DNA of 64,000 bases from Variovorax sp. HW608 (GTDB taxonomy: Bacteria > Pseudomonadota > Gammaproteobacteria > Burkholderiales > Burkholderiaceae_C), in contig NZ_LT607803.1 in assembly GCF_900090195.1 (NCBI RefSeq), positions 3,410,001 through 3,474,000 on the forward strand, in the 5' to 3' direction. A program made the translations under genes and the position numbers. Under the pieces are notes generated by a model. It was not told where the DNA came from. It worked only from the letters and a program-made list of their open reading frames with translations, and made no database searches. Positions 44,910 to 62,713 of this stretch are shown here, one piece after another; the first letter of the stretch is position 1, and each line of letters starts with the position of its first letter.

Positions 44910-46480
<1,571 letters not shown>

Positions 46481-46483
46481 GCG

Positions 46484-46560
46484 CCGCGACGGGCCGCCCC
46501 GAGCAAGCTCGCGCCCCCTCGGGGGGCAGCGAGGACACGAAGTGCCGAGAGTGGGGGCTG
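46484..46560 (+). repeat. REP-like GC-rich element between gatC and gatA
   Basis: The 82-base spacer reads CGGGCCGCCCCGAGCAAGCTCG, then CGCCCCCTCGGGGGGCAGCG and GAGGACACGAAGTGCCGAGAG. Two nested hairpins are visible: CGAGCAAGCTCG and CCCCCTCGGGGGG. A related GGGCCGCCCCAAGG-type stretch occurs after the TSUP gene near 41180. Its position inside an operon and its palindromes suggest a dispersed extragenic repeat (inference). Confidence 0.5.
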
Positions 46561-46562
46561 AA

Positions 46563-48050
46563 ATGAGCGTCGCAATCCATCAGATGGGCGTGACCGAGCT
46601 CGCCAAGGCGCTGCAGGGGCGCAAGGTGTCGGCGGTCGAGGCAGCGCGGCACCAGCTCGACCGCATCGGCCAGCACAAGGACCTCGGCGCCTTCGTGGCC
46701 GTCGACGAAGAACTCACGCTCGCGCAGGCCCGCGCCGCCGACCAGAAGCTCGCCGCCGGCAATGCCGGCGCGCTCACCGGCGTGCCGATTGCCCACAAGG
46801 ACATCTTCGTGACCACCGGCCTGCCGACCAGCGCGGGTTCGCAGATCCTGGCCGGCTATCGCTCGCCCTTCGACGCCACCGTGGTGCGGCGTCTCGCCGA
46901 AGCCGGCGCGGTGACGCTCGGCAAGCTCAGCTGCGACGAATTCGCGATGGGCTCGTCCAACGAGAACGTCGCGGTGCCCGCGGTCGGCTTCGACAAGGCG
47001 GTGCCGGTGCGCAATCCCTGGGACCCAGGCCGCATCCCCGGCGGCTCGTCGGGCGGCAGCGCGGCGGCCGTGGCGGCACGCCTCGCGCCCGCCGCCACCG
47101 GCACCGACACGGGCGGCTCGATCCGCCAGCCGGCCTCGTTCTGCGGCGTGACCGGCATCAAGCCGACCTACGGCCGCGCCTCGCGCTATGGCATGGTCGC
47201 CTTCGCGTCGAGCCTCGACCAGGCCGGCCCGATGGCCCGCTCGGCCGAAGACTGCGCCCTGCTGCTGTCCGCCATGTGCGGCCCGGACCCGGACCGCGAC
47301 TCGACCTCGCTCGACCGCCCGGCCGAGGACTTCTCGCGCCGCCTCGGCGATTCGCTCGAAGGCCTGCGCATCGGCGTGCCGAAGGAATTCCTCGGCGACG
47401 GCGTGGCGCCCGGCGTGCGCGCCGTGGTCGAGGCCGCGCTCGCCGAATACGAAAAGCTCGGTGCCCGCCGCGTCGAGATCACGCTGCCGCGCACCGAGCT
47501 GTCGATCCCGGTCTACTACATCATTGCGGCGGCCGAGGCATCGAGCAACCTGAGCCGCTTCGACGGCGTCAAGTTCGGCCATCGCGCCAAGGACTATCGC
47601 GACCTCGCCGACATGTACGCCAGGACGCGCGAGGAGGGCTTCGGCGACGAGGTCAAGCGCCGCATCATGATCGGCACCTACGTGCTGTCGCACGGCTATT
47701 ACGACGCCTACTACCTGCAGGCGCAAAAGGTGCGCCGCATGATCGCGGACGACTTCCAGCAGGCCTTCGAGCAATGCGACCTGATCGCCGGCCCGGCCGT
47801 GCCGACGGTCGCATGGAAGCTCGGCGAGCACGGCGGCGACCCGGTGGCCGACTACCTGGCCGACATCTTCACGCTGCCGGGTTCGCTCGCGGGCCTGCCC
47901 GGCATGAGCATCCCGGCCGGCTTCGACAGCGGCATGCCGGTCGGCCTGCAGTTGCTCGGCAACTACTGTGAGGAATCGCGACTACTCAACGCGGCGCACC
48001 GCTTCCAGCAAGCCACCGACTGGCACCAGCGCGCGCCTGTCGGCTTTTGA
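46563..48050 (+). CDS. gatA: Asp-tRNA(Asn)/Glu-tRNA(Gln) amidotransferase subunit A
   Basis: The start [17 protein letters not shown] (46563) is chosen over a GTG at 46542 that lies in the repeat. The 495-residue amidase releases ammonia from glutamine or asparagine. The catalytic Lys is in [11 protein letters not shown], the Ser pair in [12 protein letters not shown] and the nucleophile Ser in [13 protein letters not shown]. Ammonia passes to GatB. Confidence 0.97.
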
Positions 48051-48065
48051 TGGCGAAGAACTGAC

Positions 48066-49553
48066 ATGAGCGAAACCAACACCTTTGAAGCGCAACAGCA
48101 GGGACGCCCGACGGGTCCGCTGGTGCGCGGCTATGAAGTCATCATCGGCTTCGAGACGCACGCCCAGCTTTCCACCGCATCGAAGATCTTCAGCCGCGCC
48201 TCGACCGCCTTCGGCGCGGAGCCGAACACGCAGGCCAGCGCGGTCGATCTCGCGCTGCCCGGCACGCTGCCGGTGATGAACAAGGGCGCGGTCGAGCGCG
48301 CGATCAGGCTCGGCCTCGCGCTCGGCTCGCACATCGCGCCGCGCAGCGTGTTCGCGCGCAAGAACTACTTCTACCCCGACCTGCCGAAGGGCTACCAGAT
48401 CAGCCAGTACGAGATCCCGGTCGTGCAGGGCGGCTCGGTGAGCTTCTACCTCGGCGACGAGAAGAAGACGGTGCGCCTGGTGCGCGCGCATCTCGAGGAA
48501 GACGCCGGCAAGTCGCTGCACGAGGACTTCGTCGGCCAGTCGGGCATCGACCTCAACCGCGCCGGCACGCCGCTCCTGGAAATCGTGACCGAGCCCGACA
48601 TGCGTTCCACCGCCGAGGCCGTGGCCTATGCGCGCGAGCTGCACAAGATCGTGACCTGGATCGGCATCTGCGACGGCAACATGCAGGAAGGCAGCTTCCG
48701 CTGCGACGCCAACGTGTCGGTGCGCAAGCCCGGCGAGCCGCTGGGCACGCGGCGCGAGATCAAGAACCTCAACAGCTTCAAGTTCATGCAGCAGGCGATC
48801 GACTACGAGATCCGCTGGCAGATCGACGAACTGGAGGAAGGCCGCGCGATCCAGCAGGCGACGGTGCTGTTCGACCCCGACACCGGCGAGACGCGCGCCA
48901 TGCGCACCAAGGAAGACGCCGCCGACTACCGCTACTTTCCCGACCCGGACCTGCCGCCGCTGGCGATCGCGACCGAGTGGATCGAGCGCGTGCGCGCCGG
49001 GATGCCCGAGCTGCCGCGCGCGATGGCCGAGCGCTACGTGCAGCAGCACGGCCTGTCGGAATACGACGCGACGCAGCTCACGCAGAGCCCCGCGCTCGCG
49101 CGCTATTTCGACGATGCGGTGAGCGAGGGCGCTTCGCCCAAGCTCGCGAGCAACTGGATCACCGGCGAGATCGCGCGCCGGCTGAACCTGCAGGACATCG
49201 GCATCGACGAAGCGCCGGTGCGTCCCGCGCAACTCGCCAAGCTCATTGCGCGCATCAGCGACGGCACCATCTCGAACAACGCCGCGCGCCAGGTGTTCGA
49301 CGCGCTCTGGACCGGCGAAGGCCAGGATGTCGACCGCGTGATCGAGGCCAAGGGCCTGAAGCAGATGAGCGACACCGGTGCGCTCGAGAAGATCATCGAT
49401 GGCGTCCTGGCCACCAACCAGAAGAACATCGACGAATACCGCGCCGGCAAGGACAAGGCCTTCAACGCGCTGGTCGGCCAGGTCATGAAGGCCAGCCAGG
49501 GCAAGGCCAACCCGGCGCAGGTCAATGCGCTGCTGAAGTCAAAGCTGGGCTGA
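48066..49553 (+). CDS. gatB: Asp-tRNA(Asn)/Glu-tRNA(Gln) amidotransferase subunit B
   Basis: A 495-residue GatB. It has [22 protein letters not shown], the metal/kinase region [36 protein letters not shown] and [21 protein letters not shown]; the C-terminal YqeY-type tail domain ([18 protein letters not shown]) binds the tRNA elbow. It activates the tRNA-bound Glu or Asp and transfers ammonia to it. Confidence 0.97.
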
Positions 49554-51816: not shown

Positions 51817-52563
51817 TCAGCGCCCGGGCCGTCGCGCGCGGCCCGCATGCTGCGCCATGTGCACCTCGTGCAGCGTGATCTTGCGCACCTCGGCCTGGCT
51901 GGTCTCGATGTGCGCGCGCAGCAGCATCGCGGCCTGATCGCCGCGATTCGCACGGATCGCCTTCAGGATCTTGGCGTGCTCGTCGTAGGTCGCATCGATG
52001 CGCGGCTGCTTGGTGAAGTCGAGCCGGCGGATGATGCGGATGCGATCGGTCACGTCACGATGCACGCGCGCCATCTCGGCATTGCCGGCGGCTTCGACGA
52101 GCGCGCAGTGGAAGGCCTCGTCCCATTGCGCGACCTGCACCGTGTCGGTGCTGCGTTGCGCGGCCGGCACCAGCCAGATGCTGGCGAGGCTGTCGAGCAG
52201 GCTGCGGTCCACGCGATGGTCGCTTTCGCAGAGCCGGTGCACCGCGGTGGTCTCCAGCACCATGCGCAGGTCGTAGAGCTGCTCGAACTGGTCGAAGTCG
52301 AAAGGCAGCACCCGCCAGCCGCTGCGGAACAGCACTTCGACGAAGCCTTCCTGCTGCAGCCGGAACAGCGCCTGCCGCACCGGCGTGCGCGAGACGCCGA
52401 GCCGCTCGCTGATTTCGTTCTCGGTGAAGCGGTCGCCCGGCACGAGGCGGAACTCGGCGACGTCGCGCTTGAGTTGCGCATAGACCTGGTCGGCGCGTGT
52501 GCGAAAGGCCGCGTCCTGGGACGCGGTGGCGGCGGGGTCGGAAGGGGATCGGACGTTGGACAC
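51817..52563 (-). CDS. GntR-family regulator, FCD subfamily (likely regulator of the urea-oligomer cluster)
   Basis: A 248-residue regulator. The N-terminal winged helix (about 25-90) has GDRFTENEISERLGVSRTPVRQALFRLQQEGFV; the FCD effector domain has conserved metal-site residues in WDEAFHCALVEAAGN, YDEHAKILKAI and RAHIETS. It is the last gene of the long minus-strand cluster, ten bases after the second cysteine hydrolase gene, so it probably controls it. Its likely site is the CTTG-N2-TACAAG palindrome found at 58787 and 62602 (inference). Confidence 0.92.
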   Translation of the reverse strand: MSNVRSPSDPAATASQDAAFRTRADQVYAQLKRDVAEFRLVPGDRFTENEISERLGVSRTPVRQALFRLQQEGFVEVLFRSGWRVLPFDFDQFEQLYDLRMVLETTAVHRLCESDHRVDRSLLDSLASIWLVPAAQRSTDTVQVAQWDEAFHCALVEAAGNAEMARVHRDVTDRIRIIRRLDFTKQPRIDATYDEHAKILKAIRANRGDQAAMLLRAHIETSQAEVRKITLHEVHMAQHAGRARRPGR

Positions 52564-52573
52564 GAATGGAATG

Positions 52574-53239
52574 TTAGGGCCTGTCGAGCGCGGCGAGCAG
52601 TGTTTCGCTGCGGGCGGTCCAGCCGACGATCGCGCCCTGCGCGCGGATCATCTCGATGGCTGCCGCCTTGAAGGCGGGAAAGTAGCTTTCGGTGCAGTCT
52701 TCGAGCAGCAGGCAGTCGTAGCCGCGGTCGTTGGCCTCGCGCATGCTGGTCTGCACGCAGACCTCGGTGGTCACGCCGCCGAAAATCAGGTGCGTGATGC
52801 CGCGCCGCTTCAGCATCTCGTGCAGGCCGGTGGCGTAGAAGGCGCCCTTGCCGGGCTTGTCGACCACGATCTCGCCCGGGGCCGGCGCGAGCGCCTCGAT
52901 GATCTGGTTGCCGGGCTCGCCCATCACGAGGATGCGGCCCATCGGCCCTTCGTCGCCGATGCGCAGGGTCGGATTGCCGCGGTTGCGCTTGGCCGGCGGA
53001 CAGTCCGAAAGATCGGGCTGGTGCGCCTCGCGCGTGTGGACGACGAGGCCGCCGGCCTTGCGCCACGCCTGGAGCGCCCTGCGGGTCGCCGGCACGATGG
53101 CTTCGAGCAGCGACACGTCGTTGCCCAGCGTTTCGCCGAAGCCGCCGGGCTCGATGAAGTCGCGCTGCATGTCGATGAGCACGAGCGCGGTCTTCGCGAG
53201 CTCGAATTCGTAGGCGAACGGATTGGCGTCGATCTGCAT
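52574..53239 (-). CDS. Isochorismatase-fold cysteine hydrolase (candidate triuret hydrolase or second biuret hydrolase)
   Basis: The start [16 protein letters not shown] (53239) matches the length of the family; the frame to 53311 overlaps the ABC gene. The 221-residue protein has the catalytic triad of cysteine hydrolases: Asp23 in LIDMQRDF, Lys128 in [13 protein letters not shown] and Cys151 in [21 protein letters not shown]. It shares the DKPGKG and TT-VCV blocks with the biuret-hydrolase-like protein two genes away, but substrate-contact regions differ ([19 protein letters not shown] instead of [19 protein letters not shown]). Triuret hydrolase TrtA is a known relative of BiuH, so triuret is one candidate substrate (inference). 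Confidence 0.8.
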
Positions 53240-53255
53240 GGGGATGTCCGCAAGC

Positions 53256-54869
53256 TTATGCGGCAGCCGCGTGCTGATGGTCCCCGCCGCCCATGTGCGC
53301 GCCGAGCACATGGCGCTCGGCGGTGGCGGCGGGCGTCTCGAAGACCACGCGGCCTTCGCTCATCACGACGATGCGGTCGGCCATTTCGAGCAGCTCGTCG
53401 AGATCCTCGCTGATGAGCAGCACCGCACCGCCGCGTGCGCGCACCTGCCTGATGCGGCCGTGGATCTCCGCGACCGCCGCGAAGTCGAGGCCGAACACCG
53501 GGTTCGCCGCGATCAGCACGTTGATGTCGCCAGCCAGCTCCCGCGCCAGCACCGCGCGCTGCACGTTGCCGCCGGACAGGCTTCGGATCGGGGCGCCTTC
53601 GCCCTGCGTCTTGACGCCGTACTCCGCGATCCACTCGCGCGCGCGGCTGCGCCAGACCGGAAAGTTCAGCACGTCCGCGCCGCTCGCCTTCCAGGCCAGC
53701 GGCGGCTGGTCGAAATCGCGCAGCGCCATGTTTTCCGACACGCTGAGATCGCCCACGCAGGCATTGCGCAGCGGCTCTTCGGGGAGGCTGCGCACCTTCA
53801 GCCGGCGGTTCTCCTCGCGCCGCGCGCCGTAGGGCTCGCCCATCACCGTGACCTGTCCGCGAAGGCGCGGGCGCTGGCCGACCAGCGCCTCGACCAGCTC
53901 GCGCTGGCCATTGCCCGACACGCCGGCCACGCCGAGGATCTCGCCGCTGCGCACCTGCAGGCTGAGGTCGTGCACCGCGAGCGTGCCGCGATCGCCTTGG
54001 GCGCTCAGCCGCTCCACTTTGAGTGCAACCGGCGCATCGGCGCGCGTGGGCGTCACCGCATGCCATGCGCGACCGGAGGCCGGCGGCGTATCGCCTTCGG
54101 GGGGCGGCCCCTCCCCCTCGCCCATCATCGCCGCCGCGAGCCGCGCGGGGTCGGTGTCCGTCACCTTGCAGTGATGCACTGCCTTGCCGCGCCGCAGCAC
54201 CGTCACGCTGTCCGCATAGGCCATCACCTCGCGGAACTTGTGCGTGATGATGAGCACGGTGCACATGCCGCTCTGCGCGAACTCGCGCACATGGCCGAGC
54301 ACTTCGTCGGCCTCCTGCGGTGTCAGCACCGAGGTCGGCTCGTCGAGGATCAGGAGGCGCGGCTTCAGGTAGAGCTGCTTGAGCAGCTCGAGCTTCTGCT
54401 TCTCGCCGGCCGCGAGCTCGGCCGGGCGCATGTCGAGGTCGAGGCTGAAGGGCGTGGTGGCGAGGAAGTCCTTCAGCTCGGCGCGCTTGCGCTTCCAGTC
54501 GATGAGCAGCGGTGTCTTGCCGCCGGCCAGGAGCAGGTTCTCGGCCACCGTCATGCCCGGCGCGAGCGTGAAGTGCTGGTAGACCATGCCGATGCCGAGC
54601 GCGCGGGCGACGATCGGGTTGGCGATGTCCTGCTCGCGGCCGTCGATGAGGATGCTGCCCTCCTCGGCGCGCTGGTAGCCGGCGACGCACTTGACGAGCG
54701 TGCTCTTGCCCGCGCCGTTCTCGCCGAGCAGCGCGTGCACGGTGCCGGGCTCCACGCGCATCGTCACGCGGTCCATCGCGGTGAAGCTGCCGAAGCGCTT
54801 GGTGAGCTCGTAGGTGTCCAGCGCGAGGGCGCCGGTGGCCGGCGTGATCGGATCGACGGGTGCAATCAT
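53256..54869 (-). CDS. ABC importer ATP-binding protein, two-domain (BMP/nucleoside type)
   Basis: A 537-residue protein with two nucleotide-binding domains. Domain 1: Walker [13 protein letters not shown], signature region [19 protein letters not shown], Walker [23 protein letters not shown]. Domain 2: a degenerate Walker A ([14 protein letters not shown]), signature [15 protein letters not shown], and a Walker B that lacks the usual DEP ([13 protein letters not shown]). This layout is typical of importers with BMP-family binding proteins. Its ATG overlaps the biuret-hydrolase stop by four bases. It energises the permeases at 55588 and 56505. Confidence 0.95.
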
Positions 54870-55582
54870 GGTGCGGTGGCCTCTCGGAAGGTCGCCAGCG
54901 TTTCCAGCAGCGCGCCGGAGCTCGCATGCGCGCCGAACACCCCGCCCTGCATCGTGATCATCTTGAGCGCCGCGAGATGGTTGCCGTGGTCCGTCGCGGC
55001 GGTGCAGTCCGACAGCAGCAGGCACTCGAAGCCGCGGTCGTTGGCGTCGCGCATCGTGGTGTGCACGCAGACGTCGGTGGTGATGCCGGCGAGGATCAGG
55101 TTCTCGATGCCGCGCGTGTGCAGCACCAGTTCGAGATCGGTCGCGTAGAACGAGCCCTTGCCCGGCTTGTCGATCACCACTTCGCCGTCGATCGGCGCGA
55201 GCGCGGGGATGATTTCCCAGCCCGGCTCGCCGCGCACGAGGATGCGGCCGCACGGGCCCGCATCGCCGATGCCGACGCCATTCGCGCCGATCTGCCGCGA
55301 GCGCCAGCGCTTGTTCGCGGGCAGGTCGGCGAGATCCGGGCGATGGCCTTCACGCGTATGGATGATGTGAAAGCCCAGTTGCCGCATCCGCGCCAGCGTG
55401 CGGCGGATCGGCTCGATCGGCGCCTGCACCAGCGTGAGGTCGTAGCCCATCACGTCGACGTAGCCGCCCTCGCCGCAGAAGTCGGTCTGCATGTCGATGA
55501 CGATCAGCGCGGTGTTGTCCGGCCGCAGCGCGCCGTTGTAGGGCCAGAGATAGGGCTCTGCCGCAACATGTGTGGTGTTCAT
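54866..55582 (-). CDS. biuH: Biuret amidohydrolase (isochorismatase-fold cysteine hydrolase)
   Basis: A 238-residue enzyme that would split biuret to allophanate and ammonia. It closely follows the known BiuH pattern: [22 protein letters not shown] near the N-terminus (Asp33), [36 protein letters not shown], Lys142 in [17 protein letters not shown] and Cys175 in [16 protein letters not shown], forming the Asp-Lys-Cys triad. The lysine and cysteine numbering matches what I recall for the Rhizobium enzyme. The gene is embedded between ABC-transporter genes and upstream-encoded AtzF, the allophanate hydrolase that would use its product, which supports the call. Confidence 0.82.
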
Positions 55583-55587
55583 GGCGT

Positions 55588-56508
55588 TCATCGTGTGGAA
55601 GACAGTTCGCCCGGACTGCCGACCGCCACCTTGCCCGGCTTGCAGGTCAGCACGAGGATCACGAGCGTGAGCACGTAGGGCACGGTGTTGAAGAGGTGAT
55701 ACCCCCAGCCCACCCCGATCGATTGCAGCGCCGGCCCGATCGCGCCCGCGCCGCCGAACAGCAGCGCCGCGCCGATGCAGCGCAGCGGGCTCCAGCGCGC
55801 GAAGATCACCAGCGCGACCGCGATCAGGCCTTGTCCGCTGGAGATGCCTTCGTTCCAGCTGCCGGGATAGAAGAGCGTGAGCGACGCGCCGCCGAGCCCG
55901 GCGATGAAGCCGCCCGCCGTGGTCGCCGCGATGCGCAGCCCCGAGACCGAGTAGCCGAGGGCCCGCGTCGCGTTCGCCGAATCGCCCGCCATGCGCACCA
56001 GGAGGCCGATGCGCGTGCGCGCGAAGCCCCACCACAGCAGCACCGCGAGCGCGATGCCGACCGGCACCAGCGCGTTGACCTGCAGCGCCGAGCGGATCAC
56101 CGGGTTGTCGCTCCAGTTGCCCAGCGCAATGGCCGGCAGTTGCGGCGCCTGCGGCTGGATCAGCGGCTTGCCGAGATAGAACGCGAGGCCGGTGCCGAAC
56201 AGCATCAGCGCGATGCCGGTCGCGACGTCGTTCACCCGATCGAGCGAACACAGGAGGCCATGCAGCAGCGCGAGCATCGCGCCGGCGACGGCGCCGATCA
56301 GCGCGCCGAGCCAGGCCGAATCGGTGAGCCAGGCGCCGCCGAACGACGCCATCGCCGACAGCACCAGCACGCCTTCGAGCCCGAGGTTGATGCGGCCCGA
56401 TTTCTCGGTCAGGCATTCGCCGAGGCTCACGAAGAGAAAGGGCGCCCCGACGCGCAAGGCGCCGCCGATGATCGCCGCGAAGAGCGCGACCCACTGGTCG
56501 GCCGTCAT
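55588..56508 (-). CDS. ABC importer permease 2 (BMP/nucleoside type)
   Basis: A 306-residue membrane protein with about eight segments. The family motif [35 protein letters not shown] and [27 protein letters not shown] (here [11 protein letters not shown]) are seen. Start at 56508, overlapping the stop of permease 1 by four bases. It forms the membrane channel together with permease 1. Confidence 0.92.
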
Positions 56509-57593
56509 GGCGTGACCTCCGTCGCCGCGATCGCGGCAGCGCGCGGCGCGGCCGGCGCGCGGCTCTTGACCAGCCCCTTCCAGTCGATCATGCGCAGCCC
56601 TTCGCTCGCGAGGATCAGCACGAAGGCGACGCCCTGCAGCACTAGCACCGACGCATCCGGCAGCCCGAGCCGCCGTTGCAGCAGGCTGCCGGCGGCACCG
56701 AATCCGCCGAAGAGGATCGCCACCGGAACGATCGCGACCGGGTTGTGCCGCGCAATGAAGGACACGAGGATGCCCGCATAGCCGTAGCCGGCGATCAGCG
56801 ACGCATTCGCATTGGTGTGCACCGCGGCGACTTCGACCGCACCCGCCACGCCGGCGCACGCGCCGCCGAGCCCGCACGCGGCCAGGATCAAGCGGTTGGC
56901 CGGCAATCCGACCAGCTGCGCAGTGCGCGGGTTGCCACCGACCACGCGCACAGAAAAGCCCGAGGCCGTGAAGCGAAGCCACAGCCCGGAAGCGAGGCAC
57001 GCCACGACGCCGATCGCGAGACCCCAGTGCACGTCCGAACCGCCGATGCCGCCGATGCCCAACCCGTCGGCGAGCGAGCGCGTGGCCGGCTTGTTGAGGC
57101 TCGCCGGATCGCGCAATGCGCCTTCGACGAAATGCTTGAAGAGGCCGATCGCGACATAGGCCAGCAGCAGGCTGCTGATGGTCTCGTTGATGCCGCGGTA
57201 CTGGCGCAGCCAGCCGGCCAGGGCGATCCACGCCGCACCCGCGAGCGCGCCCGCCACGCACAGCGCGAAGGTGCCGGCGATGTTGGCCGGCAGCGGCATC
57301 ACGTAAGGCAATGCCGCGCACGCCAGCCCGCCCAGCACCAGCGCGCCTTCGCCGCCGATGATCACCAGCCCCGCGCGCGCGGGAATCGCCACGCACAGCG
57401 CGGTGAGCATCAGCGGCGCCGCGCGCTGCAGGGTGTTCTGCCACGAGAACCAGTCGCCGAACGCGCCCTTGAAGAGGATGACCCAGACATCCACCGGGCT
57501 CACGCCGGCGAACCAGACGAACACGCCGAACAGCAGCAGCGCCGCCGCGATGGCGAGCACCGGCAGGGCGATCTCTTTCAATGCGCTGGGCAT
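56505..57593 (-). CDS. ABC importer permease 1 (BMP/nucleoside type)
   Basis: A 362-residue permease with about nine hydrophobic segments: [30 protein letters not shown] is the conserved motif, followed by [18 protein letters not shown] and [29 protein letters not shown]. The C-terminus is Ala-rich. It starts 31 bases after the binding-protein gene. Confidence 0.92.
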
Positions 57594-57624
57594 CGTGGGC
57601 TCGGGTGCTGACGGGGCGCAGGGC

Positions 57625-58740
57625 TCAGCCTACGGAGCCGACGACGCCTTCGACGAGGTAGTTCATCTTTTCCAGTTCGAGATCCGTCTGCTTGAGCGTC
57701 TTGCCGGCGGCGATCACGACACTGCCCTTGTTGTCCTTGAGCGGCCCCTGGAAGATGTCGAAGGTCCCGGCGAGCATCCTGGCCTTGATGTCGTCGGCGT
57801 TCTTCTTCGCCGCGTCGGTCACCATCGAGCCGTAGGGCGACATCTTCACGTAGCCTTCCTTGAGGCCGCCGCGCAGGAAGTTCGGGTGCGGCTTGCCGGC
57901 CTCTGCCGCTTCGATGATGGTCTTGTAGGCGGTGAGCCAGTTCCATTCGGCGCCGGTGAGGTACGCGGCGGGCGCCAGCTTGGCCTGGCTCGCGTGGTAG
58001 CCGCAGACCATCTTGCCGCGCTTGGCGGCCGTCTCGACGACCACCTTCGGGCCGTCGACGTGCATCGTGAACACGTCGCAGCCCTGGTCCGCGAGGCTGT
58101 TGGTGGCCTCGGCCTCCTTCACGGCCATCGACCAGTCGCCGGTGAAGATCACGCTGCAGGTGATGTTCGGCTTGACCGAGCGCGCGCCCATCGTGAAGGC
58201 ATTGATGTTGCGCAGCACCTGCGGAATGGGCTTGGCGGCGACGAAGGCGATCTTGTTGCTCTTCGTCATGTGGCCGGCCACGACGCCGTTGAGGTACTGG
58301 CACTCGTCGATGTAGCCGAAGAAGCTGCCGACGTTCTTCGGATGCTTGCCCTCGGTCCAGAGGCCGCCGCAGTGCGAGAAGCGCACGTCGGGGTACTTGG
58401 GCGCGACCGCGAGGATGTGCGGATCGAAGTAGCCGAACGAGGTCGGGAAGAGCAGCGACGCGCCGTCCTGCGCGATCATGCCGGTCATCGTCTTCTGCAC
58501 CGCCGCGGTCTCGGGCACGTTCTCTTCCTCGACCACCTTGATGCCAGGCATCTTCTTGAGCTCGGCGGCCGCTTGCGCATGCGCCTGGTTGTAGCCGTAG
58601 TCGTCGCGCGGCCCGACATAGATCACGCCGACCGTCATCGGTTTCTGCGCCCGCGCGAGCGCGCTCCAGCCACCGAGCGTCGTCGCCGACGCGAGTGCTG
58701 CAAGGGACTTGAGGGAATCTCGGCGATTGAACTGGCTCAT
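57625..58740 (-). CDS. BMP-family ABC transporter substrate-binding protein
   Basis: A 371-residue periplasmic binding protein. The N-terminus FNRRDSLKSLAALASATTLGG has a Tat-like Arg pair and ends with ALARAQ for cleavage. The mature BMP/Med domain shows VGVIYVGPRDDYGYNQAHAQAAAELKK, LLFPTSFGYFDPHILAVA and GGLWTEGKHPKNVGSFFGYIDECQYLNG. BMP proteins are best known for nucleosides, but the GSFFGYIDECQYLNGVVAGHMTKS type is often found with amide or urea-compound genes (recollection). The upstream 121 bases contain the CTTG-N2-TACAAG operator. Confidence 0.93.
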   Translation of the reverse strand: MSQFNRRDSLKSLAALASATTLGGWSALARAQKPMTVGVIYVGPRDDYGYNQAHAQAAAELKKMPGIKVVEEENVPETAAVQKTMTGMIAQDGASLLFPTSFGYFDPHILAVAPKYPDVRFSHCGGLWTEGKHPKNVGSFFGYIDECQYLNGVVAGHMTKSNKIAFVAAKPIPQVLRNINAFTMGARSVKPNITCSVIFTGDWSMAVKEAEATNSLADQGCDVFTMHVDGPKVVVETAAKRGKMVCGYHASQAKLAPAAYLTGAEWNWLTAYKTIIEAAEAGKPHPNFLRGGLKEGYVKMSPYGSMVTDAAKKNADDIKARMLAGTFDIFQGPLKDNKGSVVIAAGKTLKQTDLELEKMNYLVEGVVGSVG

Positions 58741-58786
58741 GGTGCAGGCTCCTGGAAGTGAAGGGGTCGGAGGGCGCTGAAGGCCT

Positions 58787-58809
58787 AACTTGGATACAAG
58801 TTGGTATGC
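58787..58809 (-). promoter_or_regulatory. Palindromic operator upstream of the BMP transporter genes
   Basis: AACTTG-GATA-CAAGTT (58787-58802) is a perfect 6-bp-arm palindrome, followed by GGTATGC (58803-58809). The same CTTG-N2-TACAAG core and GGTATGC motif occur before atzF at 62602-62634. It lies 47-69 bases before the binding-protein start and fits a GntR/FCD site. Confidence 0.6.
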
Positions 58810-58861
58810 ATAAACCGTACCAGTGGCGATGCGCCGGAATGGGGCTCGAAAGGGGCCGGAA

Positions 58862-59242
58862 TCAGCCCAGAAGGCTCACGTGCGCGGCCACGACGCGCCA
58901 GCCTTGGGCGGTGCGGACCCATGTCTGGCTCTGGCGCCCCGTCCTTGTGCTTCCCTCGCGGCGGAATTCGATGTTGGCGGTCGCGAACTCGCGCCCATAG
59001 GTGGTGATCACGGTGCGCAGGATCTGGCGCGCCAGGCCCTGCGCCGGGCGCGCGGCGCGGAACGCCTGGATCTCCACGTAGCCGTAGAGGTTCTCGGTCG
59101 CGCCGTAGCGCAGCGTGTACGGGCTGTCCCAGAACAGCTCGTCCAGCACATCGACCTTGTTGTTCACCAGCGCGTCTTCGTAGCGATCGAAGGCGGCGCT
59201 GACTTCGGCCACGACCTCGGGGAGATTGATGGGGAGCGTCAT
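58862..59242 (-). CDS. atzH: AtzH-like 1,3-dicarboxyurea deamidase (DUF3225, SnoaL-like fold)
   Basis: A 126-residue protein with no cysteines and an NTF2/SnoaL-like pattern: [54 protein letters not shown] (from residue 5), then [20 protein letters not shown] and [24 protein letters not shown]. This is the DUF3225 family, which includes AtzH, reported to deaminate 1,3-dicarboxyurea in cyanuric acid degradation. It starts 17 bases after atzE. Confidence 0.82.
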
Positions 59243-59259
59243 CGTCGGGTCGGCTTTCT

Positions 59260-60684
59260 TCAAAGCGGTGCGACAGGCGCCTGCGCGACGCCTGCCGATT
59301 CGAGCGCCGCGGCAACGCGCAGCACCAGGTCTTCGCGCCATGGCGCGGCGATCACCTGCACGCCGATCGGCAGGCTGGGATGCGCGCCCCACACCGGCAC
59401 CGCGCACACCGGCAGGCCGATGCACGAGATGGGCTGAGTCAGCACGCCCATGTTGGGCCGCACCGGCAGGCGCTGGCCATGGAGCTCGAACCATTCGGCG
59501 CCGATCGGCGTCGCGGCGCACGGCGTGGCGGGCGCAAGCAGCACATCGAAGCGTTCGAACAGGCGCGCGACCTGCTGCGCATAGAGCCGCCGCACGCGCT
59601 GCGCCCGCGCGACCCACGCGGCCGGCAGCAGCGCGCCCGCGAGAAAGCGGTCGCGCGACAGCGGCTCGAAGTCCTGCGGGCGCGCGCGCAGGTCCGGCAG
59701 ATGCAGCGCTGCGCCCTCGGCGTTGGTGATGAGGAAGGCGGCTGCGCGTCCCGCCTCGACCATGGGCAGCTCCACCGTGTGGTTCGCGCCCAGGGCCTGC
59801 GCGACCGCATCCACTGCGGTGATCGCTTCGGGGAGCGCCCGTTCGCGGAACCAGCCGCCGAGCACGCCGATGCGCAGCCCGTGCAGGCCGTGCCCCAGGG
59901 CCGGCGACGCGAGCTCGATGCTCCGCTGCGCGCATCCGGGATCGCGCGGCCCCAGGGTCTCCGGGCCTTGCATCGCGTCATAGGCCGCCGCCAGATCACG
60001 CACCGAACGCGCGAACGGGCCCAGATGGTCGAGGCTCGACACGAAGGGATAGCTGCCGGTGCGCGGCAGGCGGCCGAAGGTCGGCTTGAGCCCGAACACC
60101 CCGCACAGCGATGCGGGCACGCGGATCGATCCGTTGGTGTCCGAGCCGAGCGTGATCGGCACCTGCCCTGCCGCCACCGCCGCGCCGGAGCCGCCGGACG
60201 AACCGCCCGCGATGCGCGACAGGTCATGCGGGTTGTGTGCCGCGCCGACGTGGCTGTTCTCGGTGGTGAAGCCGTAGGCGTACTCGTCCATGTTGAGCGC
60301 GCCGACCAGCACTGCGCCGGCGCTCTCCAGCCGGCGCACGAGCGCCGCATCGGCGCGCGCCGGCGTGGCCTCGCGCTCGATCTTCGAGCCCGCGAGCGTC
60401 GGCAGGCCGGCGATGTCGAAGAGGTTCTTCACCGCGAAGGGCACGCCCAGGAGCGGCAGTTCGCGCGTGCGCGCGCCCCTGTCCGACGCGAGGGACTCGT
60501 CGATCTGCGACGCGCGCCGCAACGCGCGCTCGCGGACCACGTCGGTGAATGCGTTCACGCGTACGTCGGTGGCCGCAATGCGGTCGAGGCTGGCCTGCAC
60601 GAGCGCGCCGGCACTCAGCACGCCCGAGCGCACCGCCTCGGCCATCGAGGTCGCATCCTTGAGCACGATCCCGGCAGCGTTCAT
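59260..60684 (-). CDS. atzE: AtzE-like 1-carboxybiuret hydrolase subunit (amidase-signature enzyme)
   Basis: A 474-residue amidase with Lys86 in [10 protein letters not shown], Ser162 in [13 protein letters not shown] and nucleophile Ser186 in [16 protein letters not shown]. AtzE acts only with the small partner AtzG; the adjacent gene encodes that partner and its stop overlaps the atzE start (ATGA, 60681-60684), which strongly supports AtzE over GatA or a generic amidase. The reaction would be deamination of 1-carboxybiuret to 1,3-dicarboxyurea. Overall length is normal for AtzE. Confidence 0.85.
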
Positions 60685-60887
60685 TGCTCTTTCTCCCTCG
60701 GCACGACCGGCGAAAACGCCACCGCAGGTTCGTGGTGCGGCGTGAGCGGCACCGCATCGACGACCGCGGCGAACTCGGCCGCGAGCGCGAAGTAGCGGAG
60801 GACACCCGCACGGTGGTCGGGCCGCAGCCGCAGGCCGAGGGCGGCGGATGTCGCGTCAACGTAGGCTTCGATCTGGGCGGGCGTCAT
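60681..60887 (-). CDS. atzG: AtzG-like small subunit (DUF4089)
   Basis: A 68-residue protein starting MTPAQIEAYVDATSAALGLRLRP, with an excellent ribosome site (AAAGGAG) before the ATG at 60887. The helical pattern resembles GatC: RAGVLRYFALAAEFAAVVDAVPL, then HHEPAVAFSPVV. AtzG is known to form a complex with AtzE and to be needed for its folding. The four-base overlap with atzE suggests equal production. Confidence 0.85.
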   Translation of the reverse strand: MTPAQIEAYVDATSAALGLRLRPDHRAGVLRYFALAAEFAAVVDAVPLTPHHEPAVAFSPVVPREKEQ

Positions 60888-60898
60888 GGCGGCTCCTT

Positions 60899-62587
60899 TC
60901 AGCGGCGCGATGCGATGTAGGCTCGCCATCCACCGTGGTGCGTGATGTCCTCGCCGCCCAGCACGGCCAGCGCTTCGCAAAGAAAGCCCTGCACGCTGCT
61001 GCCGTCGGCGAGCAGAACGCTGCCGATGCCAAGCGGTGCCGGGATGAGCGCGACGAAGCTGCCGTAGCGCGCAAGCGGCATCTCCCAGATCTCGACCGCG
61101 ATTGCGGCGCCTTGGTCCGCAGGCACGCGCAGCAGCCCGGGCTTCGCCGGCACCGTGCCGGCCAGCGCATAGAGGCGGTACTGCGGCGCGGTGTGCGTCG
61201 CGTGCAGCAGCCGCGCACCACGTTCGATCAATTGGCCGTTGAGCGGCATCCCGGACAGGTGCGCGCCGACCACGGCGACGCGCACGGCCTCCGCCGGCGC
61301 AACGATCGGCAGCGGCTGCGGCGCGGGCATCGGCTCGCCGGTGGCGCCGAGCGTGAGGCCGGTGGCATGGTGAAAGCGCTGTCCGAGTTCGGCCAGCTGG
61401 AAGTCGCTGCCCGAGCGGCCGATGAGCGTGATGCCGAAAGGCAGGCCGTCCTCGCGGATGCTTGCGGGCACCGAGATGGCCGCGTAGTCGAGCAGGTTGA
61501 CGAAGTTCGTGTACTCGCCCAGGTTGCGGTTGAGGCCGACCGGATCGGCCTGCATGGCCTCGATCGTGTAATGGGTCGGCGCGGTCGGCACCAGCAGCAC
61601 GTCGATGCCGTCCCACAGCGCCGCGGCGCGCTGGGCCAGCGCCTGCAGCTTCACCCGCGCAAGGACGAAATCGGCGGCGCTGTAGTCCCGGCCCTGCGCG
61701 AGGATGCCGCGCACCGGTTCGATCACCTCGGCTTCGTGCGCATCGAAGAACTCGCGCACCGCGGCGTAGCGCTCGGCCACCAGCGCACTGTCATAGAGCA
61801 GTGCAGCGGCCTCGGCGAGCGGCGCATAGTCGATCTCCACCGGCGTGCCGCCGAGCGCGCGCATCTGCTCGATCGCCTGCGCGAAGGCCTGCTGCGCCTG
61901 CAGGTCGCCGAAGAAGCGCAGCAGCGACGGCACGCCGAAGCGGAAGTTCGCCGGCAGCGGCTCCGTCGCCAGCGCGAGGCTGCGCGAATACGGATCGCCG
62001 GCGTCGAAGCCCATCGCGGCCTGCAGCACGCGCACCGCGAGATCGACGGTGCGCGCGAAGATCGACACGCAATCCACGCTCTGCGCCGCCGGCACCACGC
62101 CGCGCGCGCTCACGAGGCCGCGCGACGGCTTGATGCCCACGATGTTGTTGAGGCCCGCCGGCACGCGCCCGGAGCCTGCCGTGTCGGTGCCGAGCGAGAA
62201 ATCGACCTCGCCCGTCGCCACCGCGTAGGCCGAGCCCGAGCTGGAGCCGCCCGAGACGTAGCGCGGATCGAAGCTGTTCGGCACCGCGCCGTAGGGCGAG
62301 CGCGTGCCGTTGAGGCCGCAGGCGAACTGGTCGAGGTTGGTCTTGCCGAGCAGTTCCGCACCGGCGTCGAGCAGGCGCTGCACCACCGTTGCGTGCGCCG
62401 CCGGTGTGCGCGAGAACTCGGAGAAAGCGGGGCAGGCGGCGGTGGTCGGCACGCCGGCCACGTCGATGTTGTCCTTGGCCGCAAAGCGCAGGCCGGCCAG
62501 CGGGCCGCTCCCGGCCGTCTTCACGGGCGCGGCCAGCCGCGTGATCCACGCCGGCCCGGCTCTGTCATCCCATTGCTCGTGCACCAT
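60899..62587 (-). CDS. atzF: Allophanate hydrolase
   Basis: A 562-residue two-domain enzyme. Amidase domain (about 1-440): Lys38 in LRFAAKDNIDVAG, Ser115 in VSGGSSSGSAYAV and Ser139 in GTDTAGSGRVPAG, the Gly-Ser-Gly variant typical of allophanate hydrolases. A C-terminal domain (about 450-562) has VAVVGAHLSGMPLNGQL and YRLYALAGTVPAKPGLLRV, matching the AtzF C-terminal decarboxylase-like domain. It splits allophanate and so releases the last two ammonia from biuret or triuret. It is the first gene of the cluster; the operator at 62602 is just before it. Confidence 0.92.
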   Translation of the reverse strand: MVHEQWDDRAGPAWITRLAAPVKTAGSGPLAGLRFAAKDNIDVAGVPTTAACPAFSEFSRTPAAHATVVQRLLDAGAELLGKTNLDQFACGLNGTRSPYGAVPNSFDPRYVSGGSSSGSAYAVATGEVDFSLGTDTAGSGRVPAGLNNIVGIKPSRGLVSARGVVPAAQSVDCVSIFARTVDLAVRVLQAAMGFDAGDPYSRSLALATEPLPANFRFGVPSLLRFFGDLQAQQAFAQAIEQMRALGGTPVEIDYAPLAEAAALLYDSALVAERYAAVREFFDAHEAEVIEPVRGILAQGRDYSAADFVLARVKLQALAQRAAALWDGIDVLLVPTAPTHYTIEAMQADPVGLNRNLGEYTNFVNLLDYAAISVPASIREDGLPFGITLIGRSGSDFQLAELGQRFHHATGLTLGATGEPMPAPQPLPIVAPAEAVRVAVVGAHLSGMPLNGQLIERGARLLHATHTAPQYRLYALAGTVPAKPGLLRVPADQGAAIAVEIWEMPLARYGSFVALIPAPLGIGSVLLADGSSVQGFLCEALAVLGGEDITHHGGWRAYIASRR

Positions 62588-62601: not shown

Positions 62602-62634
62602 TCTTGTGTACAAGATGCCTTGCAAGCGGTATGC
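62602..62634 (-). promoter_or_regulatory. Palindromic operator upstream of atzF
   Basis: TCTTG-TGTA-CAAGA (62602-62615), a second palindrome CTTGCAAG (62619-62626) and GGTATGC (62628-62634) lie 15-47 bases before the atzF start. On the minus strand TTGGCA (62632-62637) is a good -35, placing the -10 inside the palindrome, so a bound regulator would block it. It shares CTTG-N2-TACAAG and GGTATGC with the site at 58787. Confidence 0.6.
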
Positions 62635-62713
62635 CAACGCGCGAACGCGCATCGACCGCGAGGACGCACTACGCAAGCGGGAATAATGGGAGGCCTCAGC
62701 ACAACACCCGTCC

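Follow-up and report, generated by a model that had tools for sequence, protein, structure and literature searches.

We describe an eleven-gene, minus-strand cluster in Variovorax sp. HW608 that very likely serves nitrogen scavenging, its products predicted to import triuret and biuret and degrade them to ammonia. The cluster lies at positions 51817-62587 of the window (the whole 64,000-nucleotide stretch analysed), within a one-contig genome of 7.7 Mb, and reads from 62587 to 51817 in the order atzF, atzG, atzE, atzH, bmp, prm1, prm2, biuH, atp, trtA, gntR. A first-pass annotation, made from the letters alone, had called eleven minus-strand genes between these ends with several ATGA overlaps, and had proposed that the cluster imports a urea oligomer and degrades it step by step, with an importer and regulator of its own. 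All eleven genes were found, and their content supports that proposal. ATGA overlaps occur at four junctions (atzG/atzE, prm1/prm2, prm2/biuH and biuH/atp); the remaining intergenic gaps are 10-31 bases, except for 121 bases between atzH and bmp that contain a second predicted promoter. Gene families were assigned by hidden Markov model search, and cut-offs of curated models are quoted beside bit scores.

The two hydrolases of the cluster, encoded at 52574-53239 and 54866-55591, share the isochorismatase fold. By curated model, identity and residues, we assign 54866-55591 as the biuret hydrolase BiuH: it passes the BiuH equivalog model NF050097 (414 bits, cut-off 370), its closest solved structure is BiuH (404 bits), and it is 77% identical to crystallised BiuH. 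The product of 52574-53239 falls below that cut-off (262 bits). Among solved structures it matches the triuret hydrolase TrtA (6xix) at 315 bits and the nearest biuret hydrolase at 229, and it is 68% identical to the crystallised Herbaspirillum TrtA. At six sites that discriminate the two enzymes (F35, N41, A134, E160, Y187 and I205; PMC7948467), 52574-53239 has the TrtA-type residue at 6/6, and 54866-55591 at 0/6, being BiuH-type at all six. The catalytic Asp-Lys-Cys triad is preserved in both, and equivalents of D24, K129, C162, E72, K132 and Q202, which comprise the triad and substrate residues, are all present in 52574-53239. A 45-row tree, whose bootstrap had yet to settle completely and which had some long branches marked as suspect, placed 52574-53239 inside a 19-row clade with 6xix (support 100/100), with the BiuH rows outside. 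Identity, residues and tree thus agree in assigning 52574-53239 as TrtA. The first-pass annotation had noted a BiuH-like hydrolase, which the curated model and the six sites bear out, and had left the second hydrolase of the same fold unnamed. With that second hydrolase assigned by sequence as TrtA, triuret is most likely the primary substrate, with biuret second.

For comparison we used 61 loci from 61 other Variovorax genomes, one of which was trimmed by a contig end, leaving 60 whole. These were selected for trtA, so that the presence of trtA is by construction, while that of other genes and their order is not; of 81 other genomes positive for a TrtA ortholog (threshold E < 1e-100), 61 loci were compared and 20 were not. 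In scoring gene content, tblastn matches under 45% identity were dropped. A separate set of 80 loci overlaps the 61 in organism, and counts of TrtA and BMP residues use distinct sequences.

The distribution of the two hydrolases bears on which substrate comes first. A TrtA ortholog was found in 82 of 101 Variovorax genomes, window's own included, and biuH was never found without trtA in the 101; in the 19 genomes lacking TrtA the best match reached 5e-29, whereas for BiuH the matches stand at about 1e-63 or better. Of the 80 loci, five (L018, L042, L049, L060 and L064) carry trtA, atzE and a distant BMP importer set with no close BiuH in the stretch, and L048 carries trtA, atzE and atzH, likewise with no close BiuH in the stretch. 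Across 120 distinct cluster TrtA sequences scored at nine sites, A134 alone varied (Met in 25), so the TrtA-type residues are retained. All this argues against biuret being the true substrate and triuret incidental, with BiuH and AtzF doing the work and TrtA and AtzGEH taking minor by-products. That alternative can draw on BiuH being the one hydrolase of the pair to pass a curated model (no TrtA model was among the NCBIfam matches), and on biuret being also an impurity of urea fertiliser (PMC7700744); we nonetheless consider it quite unlikely, and proceed with triuret as the primary substrate.

TrtA converts triuret to carboxybiuret, which loses CO2 and becomes biuret, its half-life being about 20 minutes (PMC7948467). 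From carboxybiuret AtzEG forms 1,3-dicarboxyurea by deamination, which AtzH in turn converts to allophanate; Pseudomonas sp. ADP (strain ADP) cannot use biuret, a dead end there (PMC6219798). The gene content of the window suggests a pathway of two branches. TrtA would strip one ammonia from triuret to give the unstable 1-carboxybiuret. In one branch AtzEG would deaminate this to 1,3-dicarboxyurea, from which AtzH would release CO2 to give allophanate; in the other, carboxybiuret that had lost CO2 first would become biuret, to be deaminated by BiuH, again to allophanate. The branches would meet there, with AtzF splitting allophanate to ammonia and CO2. The best solved relative of AtzE is AtzE 6c62 (564 bits, against 209 for the next, GatA), and besides passing the AtzE model (703 bits against 461) it has an AtzG-like partner gene adjoining and overlapping its own. 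The TIGR02713 match of AtzF spans residues 24-559. Tyr22 and Arg46 of AtzH, reported as needed (strain ADP numbering; residue numbers in the source paper run 3 above positions counted in our alignment), are present in the window copy.

The importer would consist of the BMP-family binding protein, two permeases and an ATPase of the ATP-binding cassette (ABC) type, together bringing in triuret and/or biuret. Its genes are interleaved with those of both hydrolases in 60/60 whole Variovorax relatives and on plasmids of Pseudomonas, Enterobacter and Rhizobium. The binding protein is about 40% identical to AtzT, which binds guanine through Glu165 among other residues, between Tyr45 and Trp194 (PMC6834077). 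Compared with AtzT, the window pocket retains Tyr, Ser, Phe and Trp, has Gln (Gln174) for Glu165, and has His and Asp for Asn218 and Asn220, as in the purine binder 3s99. The AtzT-type guanine-binding Glu was absent from all 98 distinct cluster BMP proteins, every one having Gln (matches under 60% identity were left out of these counts). It is retained in AtzT, in 3s99 and in the genome's two other BMP proteins (50-52% identical to AtzT), whose genes adjoin adenosine deaminase and xanthine-type permease genes; an IS1634-family transposase gene (L116, 7423-9162) lies between these two purine-type genes. In another single genus, two genomes combine trtA and biuH with BMP proteins of a different lineage (about 40% identity to the window's), which have Pro or Gln at this residue (L207, 1847-9850, and L209, 2056-7980). 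We infer from the pocket change a move away from purines, consistent with urea oligomers as the predicted ligand; the binding site may have exchanged purines for urea oligomers, perhaps repeatedly.

Absence of the guanine-holding Glu from every cluster BMP protein compared also argues against oxalurate or another purine-derived ureide as the substrate, a scheme in which AtzG, AtzE and AtzH would be relatives of HpxX, HpxY and HpxZ and the BMP importer would bring in purine breakdown products. AtzH does pass the HpxZ model, the BMP relatives AtzT and 3s99 bind purines (PMC6834077), and in comammox clusters trtA, biuH and atzF are found together with oxalurate genes (PMC12625717); yet AtzE scores far above the AtzE cut-off, no HpxW-type family match was found among the eleven genes (the search for HpxW being confined to these), and trtA and biuH would be without a role in that route. 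We regard the ureide scheme as highly improbable and retain triuret and biuret as the substrates.

Regulation is predicted from a composite site upstream of atzF. The putative sigma-54 promoter, TTGGCATACCGCTTGCA, is a full -24/-12 consensus, and the genome holds two sigma-54 (RpoN) genes; 6 bases separate it from a palindrome, CTTGTACACAAG. The sigma-54 site was present in 47 of 48 atzF upstream regions, window included (48 of the 62 loci, again with the window, had enough DNA before atzF). With variants allowed, the palindrome had 81 sense-strand matches in the 61 relatives: 50 before atzF (in 50 of the 61), 29 before bmp and 2 elsewhere. A similar pattern gave 23 matches in the 80-locus set, most loci of which do not extend to atzF: 19 before bmp, 3 before atzF and 1 elsewhere. 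The composite, at two mismatches per half, had two matches in the window, before atzF and before bmp, and in the relatives 78, all of them on the sense strand. At one mismatch the palindrome alone is unremarkable genome-wide, with 6 occurrences where a reversed control has 34, so its weight comes from its pairing with the sigma-54 site and from its positions.

A strict form of the pair was then sought more widely. In the 101 Variovorax genomes it matched in 64, once in each, and the reversed pattern matched in none. Fifty-eight of the 64 matches were on the trtA contig and the same strand, 8.0-14.5 kb upstream of trtA, and 6 were on other contigs than trtA; one of these six, the match in genome G056, is divergent in sequence and probably chance. 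None of the 19 Variovorax genomes without a TrtA ortholog, some of them incomplete assemblies, had the pair (Fisher p 1e-10, the genomes being related). A family sample of 299 genomes from 141 genera, scanned for the pair and not also for trtA, gave 12 matches in 8 genera, with 0 for the control; 3 were in Variovorax (window included) and 9 outside the genus. All 12 head this system: nine stand before atzF, one before bmp, one before tauA, and one before a small enzyme gene with an importer, biuH and trtA behind it. In L207, a gene resembling 5-formyltetrahydrofolate cyclo-ligase heads the operon under this same promoter-operator.

In two plasmid clusters the GntR is an ortholog (53% identity) and the palindrome stands before atzF. 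The Rhizobium cluster, whose GntR is unrelated (26%), has a sigma-54 site before bmp with no palindrome found, and we therefore rejected a GntR operator there. In the five variant loci with a distant BMP set, too, the pattern used found no palindrome. The palindrome most likely serves as operator for the cluster's GntR, and the atzF promoter probably responds to nitrogen starvation. Under such starvation, sigma-54 and an activator would open the atzF promoter, along with a weaker one before bmp, while the FCD-type GntR, bound to the palindrome over the expected transcription start, would block transcription until a compound of the pathway was present. Sequence gives no direction of control, and an operator placed immediately downstream of the sigma-54 site would also suit a GntR that activates, or one that senses allophanate or another intermediate. 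We think this unlikely: over the expected start an operator takes the usual repressor position, and FCD-GntR proteins are mostly repressors. Repression by GntR, and its release by a pathway compound, thus remain our prediction.

The first-pass annotation had envisaged that the atz-like and ABC halves might prove to be under separate, unrelated regulation. By sequence, both instead carry predicted promoter-operators of one kind; the bmp copy is weaker and is found in about half of the relatives, making the second promoter less certain than the first.

Gene order was strongly conserved. The block bmp-prm1-prm2-biuH-atp-trtA-gntR, with atzF upstream, was found in 60/60 whole relatives and is therefore not a chance grouping. 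In 27 of the 61 loci the order was atzF-tauA-tauC-tauB-atzH-bmp-prm1-prm2-biuH-atp-trtA-gntR, and another 24 had this Tau-type arrangement plus atzG and atzE. Five had atzG and atzE with no recognised atzH, four lacked both the Tau-type importer and atzGE, and in one the contig end left trtA-gntR only. The NMT1/Tau-type genes, a second ABC importer following atzF in 56 of the 60 whole relatives, had gone unmentioned in the first-pass annotation and are absent from the window, which differs from all 60 in having atzGE without them. Outside Variovorax, a Rhodoferax locus (L078) likewise has atzF adjoining atzG without a Tau-type importer, and the 2018 report has this importer in about half of its genomes (PMC6219798). 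Elsewhere in the HW608 genome the Tau-type binding protein gave six matches of only 24-31% identity, and we rejected the idea that the second importer is encoded at another site. In 33 of the 60 relatives prm2 and biuH stand about 1 kb apart, a gap corresponding to the slot that holds a formamidase gene in three plasmid clusters (Pseudomonas luteola, Enterobacter and Rhizobium); the window has no formamidase gene there.

The core block also occurs on those Pseudomonas luteola, Enterobacter and Rhizobium plasmids. The Enterobacter plasmid, pENT-784 (CP009856.1), came from a sink drain and has a compact atzF-bmp-permeases-formamidase-biuH-ATPase-trtA-gntR module between transposase genes (L183, 5940-17293). 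Among 30 listed records, 19 were Klebsiella, Enterobacter or Citrobacter plasmids carrying BMP genes about 69% identical to the window's.

Several observations weigh against our interpretation, the match of AtzH to the oxalurate-route model HpxZ among them. The compared genomes share descent, so the counts above are not independent. The second, Tau-type importer of most relatives is missing from the window locus. Before bmp, the composite was found in 27 of 60 relatives and the palindrome in 29 of 61; the strict pair was absent from 18 of the 82 TrtA-bearing Variovorax genomes, and the two plasmid clusters with the palindrome show no strict sigma-54 pattern before atzF. A Burkholderia cenocepacia ntrC mutant grew better, not worse, on biuret (PMC5491218), which would argue against simple NtrC control should that species carry the cluster. 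Finally, AtzEG and AtzH are separable: in 31 of the 60 whole relatives the locus has atzH but lacks atzGE, and in 5 it has atzGE but no atzH was recognised. The AtzE branch is therefore optional, and the substrate of AtzH less certain. The two incomplete types, typified by L132 (with 26 similar loci) and L131 (with 4), are found in different Variovorax genomes.

Since loci without AtzEG do not make the reported substrate of AtzH, AtzH may there decarboxylate carboxybiuret. Extended to the window, AtzH would take the TrtB role of carboxybiuret decarboxylase, feeding BiuH, with AtzEG as a side branch. Tyr22 and Arg46 are intact in all 55 relatives having atzH, including the 31 without atzGE, and an AtzH-like gene follows trtA in the Pseudomonas luteola cluster, at the place where, in Rhizobium, a ChrR-type cupin gene overlaps the trtA end (L185, 11656-12009); the cupin is a candidate for the decarboxylation step. 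Strain ADP AtzH was, on the other side, reported to act on 1,3-dicarboxyurea (PMC6219798), and AtzH from loci with and without atzGE differ at 6 near-fixed positions, so that activities may differ between the groups. Such a role for the window's AtzH seems to us on balance improbable, and we keep it on the AtzEG branch. A full model would combine a leak-proof triuret pathway, its two branches catching both fates of carboxybiuret; a dedicated importer changed from purine to urea-oligomer recognition, possibly repeatedly; a two-input promoter, answering to nitrogen starvation and GntR release, in eight genera; and decarboxylation of carboxybiuret by AtzH in loci lacking AtzEG. We advance this combination tentatively, as somewhat short of probable when taken whole.

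Table 1. Genes and predicted regulatory sites of the cluster, in window coordinates.
Feature	Positions	Strand	Evidence
atzF, allophanate hydrolase, 562 aa	60899..62587	-	TIGR02713 756 bits, cut-off 511; aligns with allophanate hydrolase 4gyr over residues 24-559
atzG, small AtzE partner, 68 aa	60681..60887	-	PF13318 AtzG-like 50.8 bits, cut-off 24; ATGA overlap with atzE
atzE, predicted 1-carboxybiuret amidohydrolase, 474 aa	59260..60684	-	NF006631 703 bits, cut-off 461; best solved relative AtzE 6c62
atzH, predicted 1,3-dicarboxyurea decarboxylase, 126 aa	58862..59242	-	PF11533 199 bits; 71% identity to strain ADP AtzH
bmp, periplasmic BMP-family binding protein, 371 aa	57625..58740	-	PF02608 143 bits; nearest solved protein AtzT 6pi5, 224 bits
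prm1, ABC permease, 362 aa	56505..57593	-	PF02653 (BPD_transp_2)
prm2, ABC permease, 306 aa	55588..56508	-	PF02653 (BPD_transp_2); ATGA overlap on each side
biuH, biuret hydrolase, 241 aa	54866..55591	-	NF050097 414 bits, cut-off 370; 77% identity to BiuH 6azo
atp, ABC ATPase, 537 aa	53256..54869	-	PF00005 matched in two stretches
trtA, triuret hydrolase, 221 aa	52574..53239	-	best solved relative TrtA 6xix, 315 bits; 68% identity
gntR, FCD-type GntR regulator, 248 aa, GTG start	51817..52563	-	PF07729 and PF00392
predicted sigma-54 promoter TTGGCATACCGCTTGCA before atzF	62621..62637	-	sole match in the 64-kb window (0.11 expected)
predicted GntR operator CTTGTACACAAG over expected transcription start	62603..62614	-	only exact copy in 7.7 Mb genome
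weaker sigma-54-like site CTGGTACGGTTTATGCA before bmp	58807..58823	-	2 mismatches
second predicted operator CTTGTATCCAAG before bmp	58789..58800	-	spacing again 6 bases

Elsewhere in the window, GatC-, GatA- and GatB-like genes, named on sight, lie on the plus strand at 46181-49553, with gntR about 2.3 kb beyond their end. A descent of AtzEG from GatCA has been proposed (PMC6219798); the nearness of these genes to the cluster is curious but probably coincidence.

Urea fertiliser carries triuret and biuret into soils (PMC7948467), where the toxicity of biuret to plants (PMC7700744) adds to the interest of its breakdown. In the available text of the literature compared we found no characterisation of bacterial uptake of either compound; the locus offers a concrete importer candidate, in which one pocket residue separates the BMP protein from its purine relatives. 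The promoter-operator signature is searchable and marks the putative regulon in other genomes. The analysis also proposes a substrate for a Variovorax cluster that was reported in 2018 without one, and it raises the real substrate of AtzH as a clear question. No paper joining Variovorax with triuret was found in the openly licensed literature, and no title or abstract opening among the matches listed there was about this promoter. The text of a nitrogen-starvation transcriptome study of Paraburkholderia phymatum mentions none of biuret, allophanate, isochorismatase or BMP (PMC5748707).

Pseudomonas sp. ADP has AtzR, which is LysR-type, in place of the window's FCD-GntR. Cyanurate is not indicated as a substrate of the window cluster: the genome gave no AtzD-family match, a weak negative since control genomes gave none either. 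The cyanurate operons of strain ADP, atzDGEHF and atzRSTUVW, encode AtzG, AtzE, AtzH, AtzF and the BMP-type AtzT, as in the window, and have sigma-54 promoters under nitrogen starvation, comparable to the sigma-54 sites predicted here; TrtA and BiuH are not named in the available text on them, and AtzT keeps the guanine-binding Glu that the window BMP protein lacks (PMC6834077).

The TrtA-BiuH-AtzF pathway of Herbaspirillum sp. BH-1 and Rhizobium leguminosarum has, like the window, trtA, biuH and atzF in one operon; the window additionally has atzG, atzE and atzH. The main text of that report, outside its reference list, names no ABC protein, permease or transporter, the operons being shown in its supplement (PMC7948467). 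Closest in arrangement are the atzF-[ABC]-atzGEH-ABC-amidase clusters reported from Variovorax and Rhodoferax in 2018, for which the available text gives the substrate only as 'nitrogenous compounds' and names no triuret or biuret hydrolase and no regulation (PMC6219798). In ammonia-oxidising bacteria, trtA-trtB-biuH-atzF occurs with bmpA-nupABC, and gntR appears in a synteny figure legend (2025; PMC12625717). Both hydrolases, the allophanate hydrolase, a BMP-type importer and a GntR gene are common to these and the window; the nitrifiers have trtB instead of atzGEH, and in the available text their importer is termed a nucleoside transporter and no regulation is described (PMC12625717). The first-pass annotation had thought both the mixing of transporter and enzyme genes and the pairing with a BMP importer little described. 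The latter view is not supported, given AtzT (PMC6834077), the ammonia oxidisers (PMC12625717) and the 2018 clusters (PMC6219798). The pathway is thus of a known kind, and novelty is limited by the 2018 Variovorax and 2025 nitrifier reports; new here are the assignment of TrtA at this locus, the proposal of two branches, the change in the BMP pocket and the predicted promoter-operator signature.

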